A DNA stretch of 64,000 bases from Streptomyces sp. RPT161 (GTDB taxonomy: Bacteria > Actinomycetota > Actinomycetes > Streptomycetales > Streptomycetaceae), in contig NZ_JAPZVN010000003.1 in assembly GCF_027533845.1 (NCBI RefSeq), positions 124,001 through 188,000 on the forward strand. The letters are read 5' to 3'. Below, piece by piece: positions 44,674 to 50,733 of the stretch. Positions within the stretch are counted from its first letter, which is position 1. Every line of letters begins with the position of its first letter. Position numbers and translations under genes: made by a program. The notes under the pieces are model-generated. The model was not told where the DNA came from, did not search any database, and was given only the letters and a program-made list of their open reading frames with translations.

Positions 44674-46662
44674 ATGGAGACGCCCGCGAAGGGGACCGTC
44701 GCCCACCAGCTGATCACCGCCCACCTGGTGTCCGGGCGGATGGAACCGGGCGAGGAGATCGCGCTGCGGGTCGACCAGACCCTCACCCAGGACGCGACCG
44801 GCACCCTGGTGATGCAGGAGCTGGAGGCGCTTGACCTGGACCGGGTACGCACCGAGGTAAGCGTGCAGTACGTCGACCACAACCTGCTCCAGGCCGACCA
44901 ACGCAACGCGGAGGACCACGACTTCCTGCGGTCGGCGGCGCGCCGGTTCGGCGTCTGGTACTCTAAGCCGGGCAACGGGGTGTCACACCCCACCCACATG
45001 CAGCGCTTCGGGGTCCCGGGCAAGACCCTGATCGGCTCCGACTCCCACACCTGCGCGGGCGGTTCGCTGGGCATGCTGGCGATCGGCACGGGCGGTCTGG
45101 AGGTCGCCCTGGCCATGGCGGGCCGCCCGCTGTACGTGACCATGCCGCGGATCTGGGGCGTACGGCTGACCGGTGAACTGCCGCCGTGGGTGAGCGCCAA
45201 GGACGTCATCCTGGAGATGCTGCGCCGCCACGGGGTGCGCGGCGGGGTCAACCGCGTGCTGGAGTACCACGGTCCCGGTCTGGCGTCCCTCACCGCGATG
45301 GACCGGCATGTCATCGCCAACATGGGCGCCGAACTCGGCGCCACGGCAAGCGTGTTCCCGTCGGACCAGGCGGTACGCGACTTCCTGCGGGCGGAGGGGC
45401 GCGAGGACGACTTCACCGAGATCAGCGCGGAGCCCGGCGCGCGTTATGACCTGGAGGACGAGATCGACCTCAGCGCTCTTGTGCCGCTGATCGCCAAACC
45501 CACCTCGCCGGGAAACGTGGTGCCGGTGCGGGAGGTGGCGGGTGAGTCGATCAGCCAGGCGGTCATCGGCTCCTCGGCCAATCCGGGACTACGGGACTTC
45601 GCGATGGCCGCGGCGATGGTCCGGGGACGGCAGACCGCGCCGGGTGTGAGTTTCGACGTCAACCCGACCTCGCGGGAGATCCTCCAGGACCTGACCCGCT
45701 CGGGCGCGACGTTCGATCTGATCGCGGCGGGCGCCAGGATCCACCAGGCGGGCTGCCTGGGCTGCATCGGCATGGGCCAGGCACCGGCCGCCGGGCGCAA
45801 CTCGCTGCGTACGTTCCCGCGCAACTTCCCCGGCCGTTCCGGCACGGAGGAGGACGCGGTGTGGCTGTGCTCCCCGGAGACCGCGGCGGCCTCGGCGCTC
45901 ACCGGGGTGATCACCGACCCGCGCGACTGGGCCGAGGACCGCGGAATCGGCTACCGGGCGCCCGAGCTGCCGCAACGCGCCTCGGTCAACCCCGCGATGC
46001 TGGAGCCGCCGCTGCCGCCGAACGAGGCGGCACGGGTCAAGCTGGAGCGCGGGCCGAACATCTCCGCGCTGCCGGACTTCGATCCGCTGCCGGACACCAT
46101 CGAGGGGCCGGTACTGCTGAAGGCGGGCGACAACGTGTCGACCGACGAGATCTCCCCCGCCGGTGCCAAGGCGCTGCCGTACCGCTCCAACATCCCCAAG
46201 CTCGCGCGGTTCACCCTCACCCGGATCGATCCGGAGTACCCGCAGCGCGCCGCTGACACCCGGGAGGACGGCGGCCATCTGATCGTGGCCGGTGAGAACT
46301 ACGGCCAGGGCTCGTCCCGTGAGCACGCCGCGATCACCCCGCGCTACCTGGGGCTACGAGCCGTCGTCGCCAAGTCCTTCGCGCGGATCCACTGGCAGAA
46401 CCTGGCCAACTTCGGAGTGCTGGCCCTGGAGTTCGACGATCCGGCGGACTACGACCGTGTCCGGCCGGGCGATCGGCTGCGGCTGACCGGTCTGCACGCC
46501 GCGCTCGCCGCGGACGCGGAGCCGAGGCTGCGCATGCGCAACACCACCCGCGACGAGGAGTACGGCGTACACCACCACCTCTCGCCCCGCCGGAGGAAGG
46601 CGGTGCTCGCGGGCGGCGTCATCCCCGCTCTGGCACGGGAGGAGGCGGCCGATGACGCATGA
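44674..46662 (+). CDS. Aconitate hydratase family protein
   Basis: 662 residues. Typical aconitase landmarks are [32 protein letters not shown] with the first cluster cysteine, [13 protein letters not shown] with the CxxC pair for the [4Fe-4S] cluster, and a C-terminal swivel domain with [13 protein letters not shown]. It isomerises citrate/isocitrate or a related hydroxyacid. It is shorter than the usual 900-residue actinobacterial AcnA, so it is probably a second, specialised enzyme (inference). GGAGGG precedes the ATG. Its 3' end overlaps the dehydrogenase gene by 11 bases. Confidence 0.92.
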
Positions 46663-47671
46663 GACCGTGACGCTGGCGTGGGTGGTGGAAACCCCGGGCC
46701 CCATGGCGAGCGCGCCGTTGCGCCGGGTGCGACGTGAGGTCCCGCCGCCGGGAGACGAGGAGTTGCTGATCGAGGTGCACGCGTGCGGTGTGTGCCGGAC
46801 CGACCTGCATCTGGCCGAGGGCGATCTGCCGCCGCGCCGCCCGCGGTGCACCCCCGGCCATGAGATCGTCGGCCGGGTGCTGGCCGCCGGTACCGCCGTA
46901 CGCGACTTCCGGCCCGGTGAGCGGGTGGGCGCCGCCTGGCTGGCCGGCACCTGCGGCGTCTGTCCGTACTGCCGCTCCGGACGCGAGAACCTGTGTCCCG
47001 AGTCCCGCTACACCGGTTGGGACATCCACGGCGGATACGCGGGGCACACCGTGGTGGACGCGCGGTACGTCTACCCGCTGCCCGAGGGCTGGCCGGAGGA
47101 CGAACTGGCGCCCCTGCTGTGCGCGGGCATCATCGGCTACCGCGCACTGCTGCGCGCCGAGCTGCCGCCGGGTGGCCGCCTCGGCCTGTACGGGTACGGC
47201 GCCTCCGCGCATCTGACCGCACAACTCGCCGTGGCCCAGGGCGCCACCGTGCACGTCCTCACCCGTGGCGAGGACGCCCAGCGGCTCGCCCTGGAACTCG
47301 GTGCCGCGTCGGCGGGCCCGGCGACCGCGAGCCCGCCGGAACCACTGGACGCGGCGATCCTGTTCGCACCGGCCGGTGAACTGGTGCCGGTCGCGCTGAC
47401 CGCGCTCGACCGGGGCGGCACGCTGTCCATCGCGGGCATCCACCTGTCGGACATCCCGTCGCTGAACTACGCGCGGCACCTGTTCCAGGAGCGGACCGTC
47501 CGCTCCGTCACCGCCAACACCCGTGCGGACGGCCGGGCCTACCTCGCGGAGGCGGCCCGGGTCCGACCGCGGGTGCACGTCCAGCGGTACGGCATGGCGC
47601 AGGCCGACCGGGCGCTGACCGACCTGGCCACCGGCAAGGTCAACGGGGTGGCCGTACTGCTGCCTGACTGA
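46652..47671 (+). CDS. Zinc-dependent alcohol dehydrogenase
   Basis: 339 residues. The catalytic zinc ligands lie in [11 protein letters not shown] and TPGHEIVG; the structural zinc site is [15 protein letters not shown] with four cysteines. The Rossmann loop is less typical ([17 protein letters not shown]). It oxidises alcohols or reduces aldehydes with NAD(P). The start overlaps the aconitase end, and GGAGGAGG lies just upstream, so the two are co-translated. The tRNA synthetase converges with only a 3-base gap. Confidence 0.93.
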
Positions 47672-47674
47672 ACA

Positions 47675-48892
47675 TCACTCCTCCCACAGTTCAAGGGAGT
47701 TGCGGCCGACCAGTGCGGCGATCCGGTCCACCGCCTCGGACACCGGCAGCGGGTCGATCCGGCGGCCGTCACGCAGCCGTAGCGCCACCCGCTCGTCGAC
47801 GGCCTCCTTCGGGCCGATCACGGCCTGGTAAGGCACCAGTCGCGCGGCGCGCACCCGGGCGCTGAGCGAACCGCGGTCCGGCGCGGCGCACTCCGCGCGC
47901 AGGCCCTGTTCGACGCACCGCCGTACCAGCGCCTGGGCGTCGGGCAGTTCGTCGTCGGACACCGGGAGCACCGCCACCTGGACCGGCGCAAGCCAGCCGG
48001 GGAACGCGCCGCCACGGGTGTCGATCAGATGGGCCACCGCCCGCTCCACGCTGCCGATGATGCTGCGGTGCACCATCACCGGGCGGTGCGCCGCCCCGTC
48101 GGGTCCGATGTAGTGCAGATCGAACTGGCGCGGCTGGTACAGGTCCACCTGAACGGTGGACAGGGTCGACTCCCGGCCGCTCCCGTCGGCGATCTGCACA
48201 TCGATCTTCGGCCCGTAGAAGGCGGCCTCGCCCTCCTCGGCCTCGTACGGCGCCCCGATGGCGTCGAGCACCTCGGTGAGCAGGGCTCCGGCGCGCCGCC
48301 ACATCGCCGGATCCGACACGTACTTGCCCCCGGGACCGGGCAGCGAGAGGCGGTACCTGGCGGCGCGGATGCCCATGGCCCGGTAGGCGCGGTCGATGAG
48401 TTCGAGCGCCGCCCGCGCCTCGTCGGCGGCCTGTTCCAGGGTGCAGAAGACATGGGCGTCGTTGAGCTGGATTGCCCGCACCCGGGTGAGCCCACCCAGG
48501 ACACCGGACAGTTCGGAGCGGAACATTCCGCCCAATTCAGCAATCCGCAGCGGCAGTTCGCGGTAGCTGTGCTCGCGGGAGCGGTAGATCAGGGCATGGT
48601 GCGGGCACAGGCTGGGGCGCAGTACGAACTGCTCACCGCCGAGTTCCATCGCGGGGAACATGTCGTCGCGGTAGTGCGCCCAGTGCCCTGAGATCTCGTA
48701 CAGCTCGCGCTTGGCCAGTACGGGCGAGTGGACGTGGCGGTAGCCCGCTCGCCGTTCCGCCTCCCGGATGTACTCCTCCAGGGCGTGCCGCACCGCGGCG
48801 CCGTTCGGCAGCCAGTACGGCAGCCCGGCGCCGATCAGCGGGTCGGAGTCGAAAAGGTCCAGCTCACGGCCGAGCTTGCGGTGGTCGTGCAT
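47675..48892 (-). CDS. thrS: Short threonyl-tRNA synthetase (no TGS or editing domains)
   Basis: 405 residues from ATG 48892 (GAGGAG six bases upstream). It contains class II motifs and the three zinc ligands expected in ThrRS: Cys in LRPSLCPHH, His in LNDAHVFC and His in MVHRSIIGSVER. The C-terminal anticodon-binding domain starts near VQVAVLPVSDDELP. The N-terminal TGS and editing domains of a housekeeping enzyme (about 650 residues) are absent, so this is probably a second copy, needed for a special condition or for resistance to a ThrRS inhibitor (inference). Expression is likely controlled by the attenuator at 48933-49022. Confidence 0.9.
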   Translation of the reverse strand: MHDHRKLGRELDLFDSDPLIGAGLPYWLPNGAAVRHALEEYIREAERRAGYRHVHSPVLAKRELYEISGHWAHYRDDMFPAMELGGEQFVLRPSLCPHHALIYRSREHSYRELPLRIAELGGMFRSELSGVLGGLTRVRAIQLNDAHVFCTLEQAADEARAALELIDRAYRAMGIRAARYRLSLPGPGGKYVSDPAMWRRAGALLTEVLDAIGAPYEAEEGEAAFYGPKIDVQIADGSGRESTLSTVQVDLYQPRQFDLHYIGPDGAAHRPVMVHRSIIGSVERAVAHLIDTRGGAFPGWLAPVQVAVLPVSDDELPDAQALVRRCVEQGLRAECAAPDRGSLSARVRAARLVPYQAVIGPKEAVDERVALRLRDGRRIDPLPVSEAVDRIAALVGRNSLELWEE

Positions 48893-48932
48893 GGCGGTCT
48901 CCTCGGTACTGCCAGAGCGAGTGACCGCGACG

Positions 48933-48960
48933 AAGCCCCGGGGCACTCGCCCCGGGGCTT
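48933..48960 (-). terminator. Attenuator hairpin in the thrS leader
   Basis: On the minus strand AAGCCCCGGGGC, loop GAGT, GCCCCGGGGCTT form a perfect 12-bp stem between the leader peptide stop (11 bases away) and the thrS start (40 bases on). Its first arm can instead pair with the end of the leader peptide sequence: GTCCCGG (48986-48980) with CCGGGGC (48955-48949), 7 bp with one G-U. That gives a competing antiterminator. Confidence 0.75.
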
Positions 48961-48971
48961 CTTGGCAGGTG

Positions 48972-49022
48972 TCAGCGCGCCGGGACTGGGTCCGGCGTCG
49001 TCGTCACAGCGGCGCGCTTCAT
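48972..49022 (-). CDS. Threonine attenuation leader peptide
   Basis: A 16-codon ORF, MKRAAVTTTPDPVPAR, with three consecutive threonine codons (ACG ACG ACG), directly upstream of a terminator-like hairpin and thrS. Bases 49018-49010 (AGCGCGCCG) and 48982-48974 (CGGCGCGCT) form a perfect 9-bp protector stem across the Thr codons. With the antiterminator and terminator pairings this gives the standard 1:2, 2:3, 3:4 set of ribosome-mediated attenuation: stalling at Thr codons when charged tRNA-Thr is scarce would free region 2 and block the terminator. AGGAG lies 13 bases upstream, a little far; a TACCCT -10 just before the ATG leaves open a leaderless start. Confidence 0.75.
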   Translation of the reverse strand: MKRAAVTTTPDPVPAR

Positions 49023-49189
49023 GATCACAGGGTATCTCCTGCGGCGGGGGTGGGCGATGGTTTTTTCCTGGAGCGCGGCACCTGCCCAAGTGGGTGCCCC
49101 GGCTTCGCCCGGTGGGGGTGCCGGGCGGGCGCGGAGTGGACCTACCCTTTTCCTAGGGCTTCAGCCACCCATGCTTGGAGGCTTTCGCC

Positions 49190-49576
49190 ATGACGATCCA
49201 GCTCAACCACACCATCGTCGCGGCGCACGACAAGGAGGCGTCGGCGCGGTTCCTGGCTTCCGTGCTCGGTCTCGAAGTCGGTGCGCCCTACGGGCCGTTC
49301 GTGCCCGTGACGGCGGCGAACGGTGTCACGTTGGACTTCGCGGACAGCGGTACGGAACCGATCACCCCGCAGCACTACGCGTTCCTGGTGTCGGACGACG
49401 AGTTCGACTCGATCTTCGAACGCATCAAGCAGGCGGGCATCACGTACTACGCCGATCCCCACCACGCCGAGAAGGGCCGCATCAACCACCGCGACGGTGG
49501 CCGGGGGGCGTACTTCGACGATCCGGACGGGCACAATCTGGAGATCCTCACCCGCCCCCACGGCGACGGCGGCTGA
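49190..49576 (+). CDS. VOC (glyoxalase/bleomycin-resistance) family protein
   Basis: 128 residues from ATG 49190, with GGAGG 8 bases upstream. The single VOC unit is seen in LNHTIVAAHDKEASARFLASVLGLEV and AYFDDPDGHNLEILTRP, including the His and Glu positions used for metal binding. Function beyond the fold cannot be assigned. Confidence 0.88.
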   Translation: MTIQLNHTIVAAHDKEASARFLASVLGLEVGAPYGPFVPVTAANGVTLDFADSGTEPITPQHYAFLVSDDEFDSIFERIKQAGITYYADPHHAEKGRINHRDGGRGAYFDDPDGHNLEILTRPHGDGG

Positions 49577-49624
49577 GCCCGAAGGGCGTTCAACTCTCCG
49601 TGGCCCGCATCGCACTTGCCGCGG

Positions 49625-50491
49625 TCAGCGGGACAGGTCGCGGTGCCATCTGCGGGTGGCCCACGCCGAGGCGGCGATCACCAGCAGCGAACCCACCACG
49701 AGCACCGAGACGTGCGTGGCGCTCCATCTGCCGTGTGGCGACTTCCAAACACCCGACGCCGTCTGCTGAGGTCCGCCCGAGGCGCCCAGCGGGTGGCAGT
49801 TGCGTTCCATCGCCAGGTGGTGAACCACCAGCGGGCGGGCGGATTGGGCGGCGGCGACGACCTTGGAATGGTCGCCCTGCCCACCGGAGGCGATCTCCTG
49901 GTCGATCAGTCTGAGGGTGTCGGTGTGCGCCGCCGACCGGGCGCGCAGCCACTGGGTGTCGTAGCCGGATGTGCCCGCGCTCCTGCCGATCCGGGCGAGC
50001 TGGTCGTTCTCCGCCGGGGTGGGACTGGGCGGAAGTGCGATCTTGAGCTGTCCGCTGAGCGTGCTGATCGCCTTGTCCATCGCGCCGCGGTCACGCACGA
50101 GTGCGGCGCCGACCCGCATCACACATGCCGCCGCCGCGTGGGGCACGGCGTCCCGACCCGCGTTGACCTCGGCGAGGTCCCCCTGGTGCAGCGCGCCGAG
50201 GAAGGCGGCGTCACCGGGACCGACGGTGGGCGTCCCGCTGTCCGACGGGCTGGCGCTGCCGCCGGAAGGACTGGCGCTACCCGACGCGCTCGGGTTGTCC
50301 GAGGCGCCGGGACTGTTCGACGGGCTGGGGGCGCTGGACGCGGCGGGGCTGTTCGACGGCGCGGGACCGGCCGCGGCGCTGGGCGCGCCCGGTGCGGCGC
50401 TCGGATCCTCCGCGGCGGCGGAACCAGCGAGTCCGGCCGCCATCACCAGTCCGGCCGCCGCCACGCAGACCCATGCCCGGCTACGTACCAT
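49625..50491 (-). CDS. Secreted/anchored DUF4142 protein
   Basis: 288 residues from ATG 50491 (GGAGG upstream). A signal peptide (cleavage near SAAA-E) is followed by about 60 residues of Ser/Pro/Ala-rich linker, then a ferritin-like four-helix DUF4142 region (DAAFLGALHQGDLAEVNAG ... HTDTLRLIDQEIASGG), and a C-terminal membrane helix with RR.HR end that should anchor it to the cell surface. The usual DUF4142 His residues are partly kept. Function unknown. Confidence 0.85.
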   Translation of the reverse strand: MVRSRAWVCVAAAGLVMAAGLAGSAAAEDPSAAPGAPSAAAGPAPSNSPAASSAPSPSNSPGASDNPSASGSASPSGGSASPSDSGTPTVGPGDAAFLGALHQGDLAEVNAGRDAVPHAAAACVMRVGAALVRDRGAMDKAISTLSGQLKIALPPSPTPAENDQLARIGRSAGTSGYDTQWLRARSAAHTDTLRLIDQEIASGGQGDHSKVVAAAQSARPLVVHHLAMERNCHPLGASGGPQQTASGVWKSPHGRWSATHVSVLVVGSLLVIAASAWATRRWHRDLSR

Positions 50492-50733
50492 CACGCCCTC
50501 CGTTCCTCTCCTGTGCGCACCGGTCGGCGCCGTGGGAGCCACATACGTCCCCGGTCACACGGCCCCCGACACGGACCGGCCTACGGATGGCGCAACGGTC
50601 GTGGCCACCGGGGCACTCGGCCCCGGATCCGGAACAGATCAACTGTGAAACTCCAGCGCTCAGGGGCGCTGCTGCGGCTACCGTAGAAGGTGGGAAGAAA
50701 AGGCCTTCGGGAGCGGTCACGGAGGTGTCGGCG

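Follow-up and report, generated by a model that had tools for sequence, protein, structure and literature searches.

A conserved threonine leader peptide and covarying RNA helices upstream of a short threonyl-tRNA synthetase gene in Actinobacteria

The closest described system is the thrL-thrS pair of Streptomyces lividans TK24, for which a leaderless threonine leader was reported in 2021 (Front Microbiol, Table 4; PMC8079986). A related case is the gene of an auxiliary antibiotic-resistant tryptophanyl-tRNA synthetase (TrpRS), which is subject to ribosome-mediated transcriptional attenuation according to the title of Vecchione & Sello 2010, as cited in PMC4787780. Attenuators of leuS, trpS and the trp operon of Actinobacteria were predicted by Seliverstov et al. 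2005; in their survey, threonine operons yielded no conserved RNA structure, and thrS was not listed (PMC1262725). The thrS2 gene of S. coelicolor is activated by WblC as part of an antibiotic-response regulon, and the WblC/WhiB7 motif has the consensus GAAAWY upstream of the -35 element (PMC7157823). The first-pass annotation of the locus described below regarded a threonine leader on a short threonyl-tRNA synthetase (ThrRS) as unusual. Precedents exist in the thrL published before thrS of S. lividans in 2021 (PMC8079986) and the trpS and leuS attenuators of streptomycetes predicted in 2005 (PMC1262725).

The thrS2 locus and its enzyme

The window analyzed is a stretch of 64,000 nucleotides in which thrS2 lies on the minus strand. 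The first-pass annotation had described a set of leader features just before a ThrRS gene, and these were borne out at their places, with the start of thrS at 48892. The gene and the elements at the 5' end of its leader are as follows.

47675-48892, minus strand: thrS2, 405-aa threonyl-tRNA synthetase without TGS and editing domains (TIGR00418, Pfam)
48972-49022, minus strand: leader peptide reading frame thrL, encoding MKRAAVTTTPDPVPAR followed by a stop (sequence, family conservation)
48996-49004, minus strand: three consecutive ACG threonine codons, the proposed sensor (ACG in 579 of 585 TTT-run codons)
49029-49034, minus strand: -10 box TACCCT, separated from the leader start codon by 6 nt (TANNNT in 196/196 leaders)
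49060-49067, minus strand: AT-rich GAAAAAAC at the position of the WblC/WhiB7 box (inexact match to GAAAWY)

The thrS2 product scores above the TIGR00418 cut-off in a profile search, and Pfam recognizes only the class II catalytic core and the anticodon-binding domain. A second ThrRS, a full-length housekeeping enzyme 41% identical to the thrS2 product, is encoded elsewhere in the same genome. This genome is Streptantibioticus-like: two relatives from its genus correspond, with equal identities, to Streptantibioticus rubrisoli (93% identity) and S. ferralitis (89%) of the named collection. The gene is convergent with an alcohol dehydrogenase and an aconitase-family gene (44674-47671), and its divergent neighbor (49175-49576, plus strand) encodes a protein of the glyoxalase/bleomycin-resistance fold.

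At the position of E. coli Leu489, the thrS2 product carries Gln, as do 120 of 122 family members; the organism's own housekeeping ThrRS has Leu there. Mutations at Leu489 and His309 of the E. coli enzyme raise the Ki of borrelidin 300- to 1000-fold, and the ThrRS of the borrelidin producer has Tyr at the equivalent of position 488 (Tyr515 in that enzyme; PMC4389257). Position 488 (E. coli numbering) is Tyr in the short ThrRS of the window and His in most relatives. The residues at these positions make it plausible, judging from sequence, that the thrS2 enzyme is a drug-tolerant spare ThrRS, in parallel to the auxiliary TrpRS.

Leader peptide, promoter and distribution

Upstream regions were collected for short thrS homologues, with protein identities as low as 53%, from same-family, same-class and named genomes. 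The sample includes Streptomyces, Kitasatospora, Streptacidiphilus, Streptosporangiaceae, Saccharopolyspora, Amycolatopsis, Nocardia, Kineosporia, Jiangella and others. The leader reading frame with ACG ACG ACG at 49004-48996, which had been noticed in the first pass, is present in the window. When the homologues of about 400 residues were compared, as had been suggested there, the Thr-codon reading frame was found to be kept in 196 of 201 distinct upstreams from many actinobacterial families, with the peptide pattern M[K/Q]RA…TTTP(E/D)xVPAR. In one upstream, TTP stands in place of TTTP. The five upstreams without a recognized leader are accounted for by contig edges, an incompletely modeled gene or an extended N-terminal reading frame, and one of them (L166) still contains the TTT core.

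The near-constancy of ACG in the TTT run (579/585 codons, 196 leaders) concerns a minor codon: in four window genes, 19% of threonine codons are ACG and 79% are ACC. The run itself is rare by chance, occurring in 5 of 1034 short reading frames of the window. The first two ACG codons lie outside all proposed helices, so that their constancy suggests selection for the codon itself, perhaps for its tRNA. This pattern suggests sensing of one tRNA-Thr isoacceptor. The distance from the Thr run to the stop is exactly seven codons in 187 of the 196 leaders, and the number of codons ahead of the run varies from 5 to 15. The spacing is therefore constant on the side where it would determine the fold around a stalled ribosome, and variable on the side where extra codons would only lengthen the loop of helix H1 (see below).

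A TANNNT box is located 6-7 nt ahead of the leader start in all 196 leaders. The scan covered distances of 4-9 nt and gave preference to starts with a box of this kind; consequently, the narrow spacing is the telling part of this result. Because the -10 box is so close to the start codon, the thrL transcript is probably leaderless, like that of S. lividans thrL, whose leaderless start was mapped (PMC8079986). In the window, the ATG at 49022 is the likely start, since TACCCT at 49034-49029 sits 6 nt before it. The GTG at 49028, with AGGAG ahead of it, was considered as leader start and rejected, since what relatives conserve there is the -10 box rather than the AGGAG. At a fixed distance of about 33 nt from the -10 start, on its upstream side, lies an AT-rich box that matches AAAWY in 81 of 191 promoters, where 5 would be expected. 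This is the position at which a WblC box, GAAAWY located 3 nt upstream of -35, is expected; GAAAAAAC in the window is not an exact GAAAWY.

Model searches place the element almost exclusively at thrS2. The organism's own genome contains one strong site, and two weak matches elsewhere in it (C52, C51) were dismissed as ordinary GC hairpins without a Thr leader; the model does not match the housekeeping thrS locus. Nearly all positive genomes have one strong site each, at thrS2. Strong matches in 121 family genomes lie at thrS2 with four exceptions, which were rejected as a second use of the element: two precede a truncated thrS2, one is beside no thrS, and one is at a contig edge. In a phylum-wide sample, the element occurs in only 6 of 396 genomes; one of these belongs to a different family and has the element before a thrS2 that is 78% identical. 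Leader-like elements beside lost or truncated thrS2 (L225, L226, L227) suggest repeated decay of the spare synthetase.

Helices of the leader RNA

The pairing elements of the leader, from the 5' end of the transcript, are the following.

49010-49018, minus strand: helix H1, 5' strand, AGCGCGCCG (folding, pairing conservation)
48980-48986, minus strand: antiterminator, 5' strand GTCCCGG, extending to 48974 with bulges (98.2% of cells paired, nearly invariant)
48974-48982, minus strand: helix H1, 3' strand, CGGCGCGCT, overlapping the antiterminator 5' strand (folding, pairing conservation)
48932-48961, minus strand: terminator-like hairpin T of 13 bp with a GAGT loop and without a U-tract (8 of 14 pairs show compensatory changes)
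48949-48955, minus strand: antiterminator, 3' strand CCGGGGC, lying within the 5' arm of hairpin T (conservation, stalled-ribosome folds)
48944-48950, minus strand: helix P, 5' strand GCGAGTG, at the apex of T (compensatory changes)
48894-48928, minus strand: hairpin S, GCGGTC...GACCGC, sequestering the thrS Shine-Dalgarno sequence (compensatory changes in 11 of 11 pairs, covariance-model alignment)
48917-48923, minus strand: helix P, 3' strand CACTCGC, shared with S (compensatory changes)
48898-48904, minus strand: Shine-Dalgarno sequence GAGGAGA of thrS (sequence, folds)

H1, the antiterminator and T share strands and form mutually exclusive 1:2, 2:3 and 3:4 helices. The 9-bp stem of the first-pass annotation (49018-49010 with 48982-48974) is indeed perfect, and its competing 7-bp pairing (48986-48980 with 48955-48949) is present with one G-U, growing to 11 pairs in the stalled-ribosome fold. 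The terminator-like hairpin, described there as 12 bp, also exists, but it has 13 bp (48961-48932) and no U-tract after it. A terminator pattern needing a T run did not pick T up in the window, and a long U-tract is absent after T in most relatives, with true U-runs in only a few. Consequently, the earlier statement that the full set of classic attenuation features is present stands for the Thr-codon reading frame and the exclusive H1, antiterminator and T helices and fails for the U-tract terminator. Real U-runs follow T in L094 (4870-5003, GGACTTTTTTC) and L106 (4864-5003, GGGGTTTTTTC); true termination may have been gained, or retained, in these lineages (Kineosporia, Allokutzneria).

The 133-nt leader folds with z = -3.7, none of 200 shuffles being as stable, and the minimum free energy structure of the free leader consists of H1, T and S. 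When transcription intermediates are folded with a ribosome masking the Thr codons, 161 of 162 sequences are predicted to form the antiterminator; with the ribosome at the stop codon, the end of the reading frame (b below) is masked and T can start folding. T is far stronger than the antiterminator (-31.7 versus -11.0 to -16.8 kcal/mol). At equilibrium the outcome is always T, so that the switch has to operate kinetically, during transcription, and full-length thermodynamic folding cannot show it.

Covariation was assessed in alignments of 42 sequences and of 97 sequences (covariance model), the latter leaning towards H1, T and S because it was fitted to them. T and S undergo many two-sided changes, with covariation scores unmatched by 500 shuffles, and slid pairings score far lower. 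The covariation check that had been proposed for the hairpins thus bears out T through compensatory changes. H1 and the antiterminator are paired in 97-98% of cells and almost invariant, so that covariation cannot test either; their pairing is consistent with the model and is not proof of it. Conservation of the end of the reading frame could partly reflect selection on the peptide.

Two conserved, covarying helices further downstream, P and S, were absent from the first-pass annotation. The Shine-Dalgarno sequence is at least partly paired through S in 192 of 192 folded sequences, and S is kept with quite different letters in L094 (CTTTGCCG-GTC/GAC-GGCAAAG). P lies outside the 97-sequence model; 92.7% of its cells pair, and 31 changes are two-sided, compared with an expectation of 10.7 and a maximum of 15 among slid versions. 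It beats 500 shuffles and the slid controls both in covariation score and in two-sided changes. Partner strands of P in different species include GGGCGAGCG:CGCTCGCCC, GGGCGGATG:CATCCGCCC, GGGCAAGTG:CACTTGCTC and GGGCAGGTG:CGCCTGCCC, and swapping partners between species weakens P as well as S. In the window, P has only 7 bp, or 5 bp with the antiterminator fully formed. Because P draws its strands from the closed apex of T and from the 5' arm of S, it would form only if T is prevented and would then hold S open; in the model, it would depend on the leader ribosome. The conserved sequestration of the Shine-Dalgarno sequence by S suggests that control may also be translational. With no U-tract after T in the window or in S. 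lividans, regulation of translation by S is no less likely than termination at T.

Mechanism, rival explanations and known systems

The conservation of the leader and the covariation of T, P and S lead to a main reading with a probability of about 0.78: the thrS2 5' leader is a ribosome-mediated sensor of Thr-tRNA that acts through a five-helix relay on translation initiation, perhaps also on transcription. Ribosome stalling, the timing of the switch and the level of its output are what we infer in this scheme. Its elements, in order, are a (start of the reading frame), the Thr codons, b (end of the reading frame), c-d-e (hairpin T with apex d), f, and g (the Shine-Dalgarno sequence). The pairings are a:b (H1), b:c (antiterminator), c:e (T), d:f (P) and f:g (S). 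With ample Thr-tRNA, the ribosome would reach the stop codon and cover b, so that T would form with its apex as a closed tetraloop. This would leave f free for g; the Shine-Dalgarno sequence would be hidden and the gene off, and transcription may also end at T. If the leader is not translated, a:b would give the same off outcome. A ribosome stalled on the ACG codons would cover a, allowing b:c to pair, and T would not form in time. In the absence of T, d:f would pair, the Shine-Dalgarno sequence would be exposed and the gene would be on. The arrangement probably serves to bring a spare, drug-tolerant ThrRS into use when threonine runs short or an inhibitor blocks the housekeeping enzyme. A fuller version is put forward tentatively, at slightly under even odds: a conserved actinobacterial RNA in which one leader ribosome, through the relay a:b, b:c, c:e, d:f and f:g, couples amino-acid attenuation to Shine-Dalgarno release, forming an ACG-tuned, inducible resistance switch for a borrelidin-tolerant, WblC-controlled spare ThrRS.

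The rival explanations differ mainly in the role assigned to T. In purely translational attenuation, T would be only a switch helix with constant read-through, and leader stalling would free the Shine-Dalgarno sequence via P. The covariation of S, the at least partial sequestration of the Shine-Dalgarno sequence in all 192 folds and the exclusion of both T and S by P agree with this, as does the proposal that actinobacterial ileS T-boxes sequester the Shine-Dalgarno sequence (PMC1262725). However, a 13-bp GC hairpin with a tetraloop exceeds the need of a switch and resembles a pausing or termination structure, and some relatives have U-runs, which leaves this explanation rather doubtful. Purely classical transcription attenuation of the E. 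coli thr/trp type is unlikely. It would make T an intrinsic or factor-dependent terminator and the sole output, with S and P as by-products. Its H1/antiterminator/terminator logic is complete, a few relatives (L094, L106) have the real U-runs, and the streptomycete auxiliary TrpRS precedent is called transcriptional in its title (Vecchione & Sello 2010, cited in PMC4787780). Nevertheless, covariation of S and P is unexpected of by-products, the window has no U-tract and most relatives lack a long one, and the authors of the S. lividans study noted one hairpin but no U-rich stretch (PMC8079986).

Two further explanations were considered. If thrL were an upstream reading frame for translational coupling or reinitiation, the conserved peptide end PxxVPAR could be accommodated, and expression-raising leader genes acting by reinitiation have been proposed in Actinobacteria (PMC4833913). 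This is very improbable, given about 80 nt with two stable hairpins between the leader stop and the thrS start, and an ACG run that is among the most constant features and keeps a fixed distance to the switch helices. As for another known RNA class (T-box, E. coli-type thr leader or riboswitch), thrS in Firmicutes is under T-box control. An Rfam 15 scan of the 2.5 kb from 48000 to 50500 with E up to 5 returned only four unrelated matches at chance level and none to the T-box or the enterobacterial thr leader, so that the chance of such a class is close to negligible.

The sensor-relay reading fits among known systems as follows. The S. lividans thrL (MKRVRPFLETTPGFVPAR followed by a stop; Table 4) shares with the window a leaderless start (predicted in the window), a location before thrS and the KR...TTP...VPAR frame, and in both cases there is one hairpin and no U-rich tract (PMC8079986). 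The window has three Thr codons in a row, whereas S. lividans thrL has two. That report covers one strain, calls termination "not clear" and is without comparative or structural analysis, Shine-Dalgarno sequestration or apex pairing. The auxiliary TrpRS, as far as the cited title goes, is likewise a spare inhibitor-tolerant synthetase with a leader peptide containing the cognate codon; it concerns Trp rather than Thr and is described, by title, as transcriptional. The leuS and trpS attenuators resemble the window in having a leader peptide, antiterminator and terminator before aminoacyl-tRNA synthetase genes in streptomycetes. The translational T-box of actinobacterial ileS also combines aminoacylation sensing with a Shine-Dalgarno-sequestering hairpin (PMC1262725), but it senses tRNA directly and has no leader peptide, and no T-box match was obtained at the window locus. 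Attenuation of wblC is similarly based on an upstream reading frame and triggered by translation inhibitors; unlike thrS2, wblC is a transcription factor gene and is not known to use a Thr leader (PMC7157823).

The Thr leader before thrS in S. lividans and the attenuation of the auxiliary TrpRS are thus already published. With respect to the open-access literature, the novelty lies in how widely the leader is conserved, in the covariation seen for T, in helices P and S, in the constancy of ACG and in the connection with the Leu489 substitution. What had been a single table line for one strain thereby becomes a regulatory RNA that is conserved widely, has structural support and is without a relevant Rfam match at its locus. 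The thrL-thrS2 pair provides a clear test case for the question whether high-GC Gram-positives attenuate at translation initiation rather than with U-tract terminators. If the proposed reading is true, threonyl-tRNA charging and natural ThrRS inhibitors such as borrelidin would be linked to the induction of a spare synthetase, in parallel to indolmycin and TrpRS.
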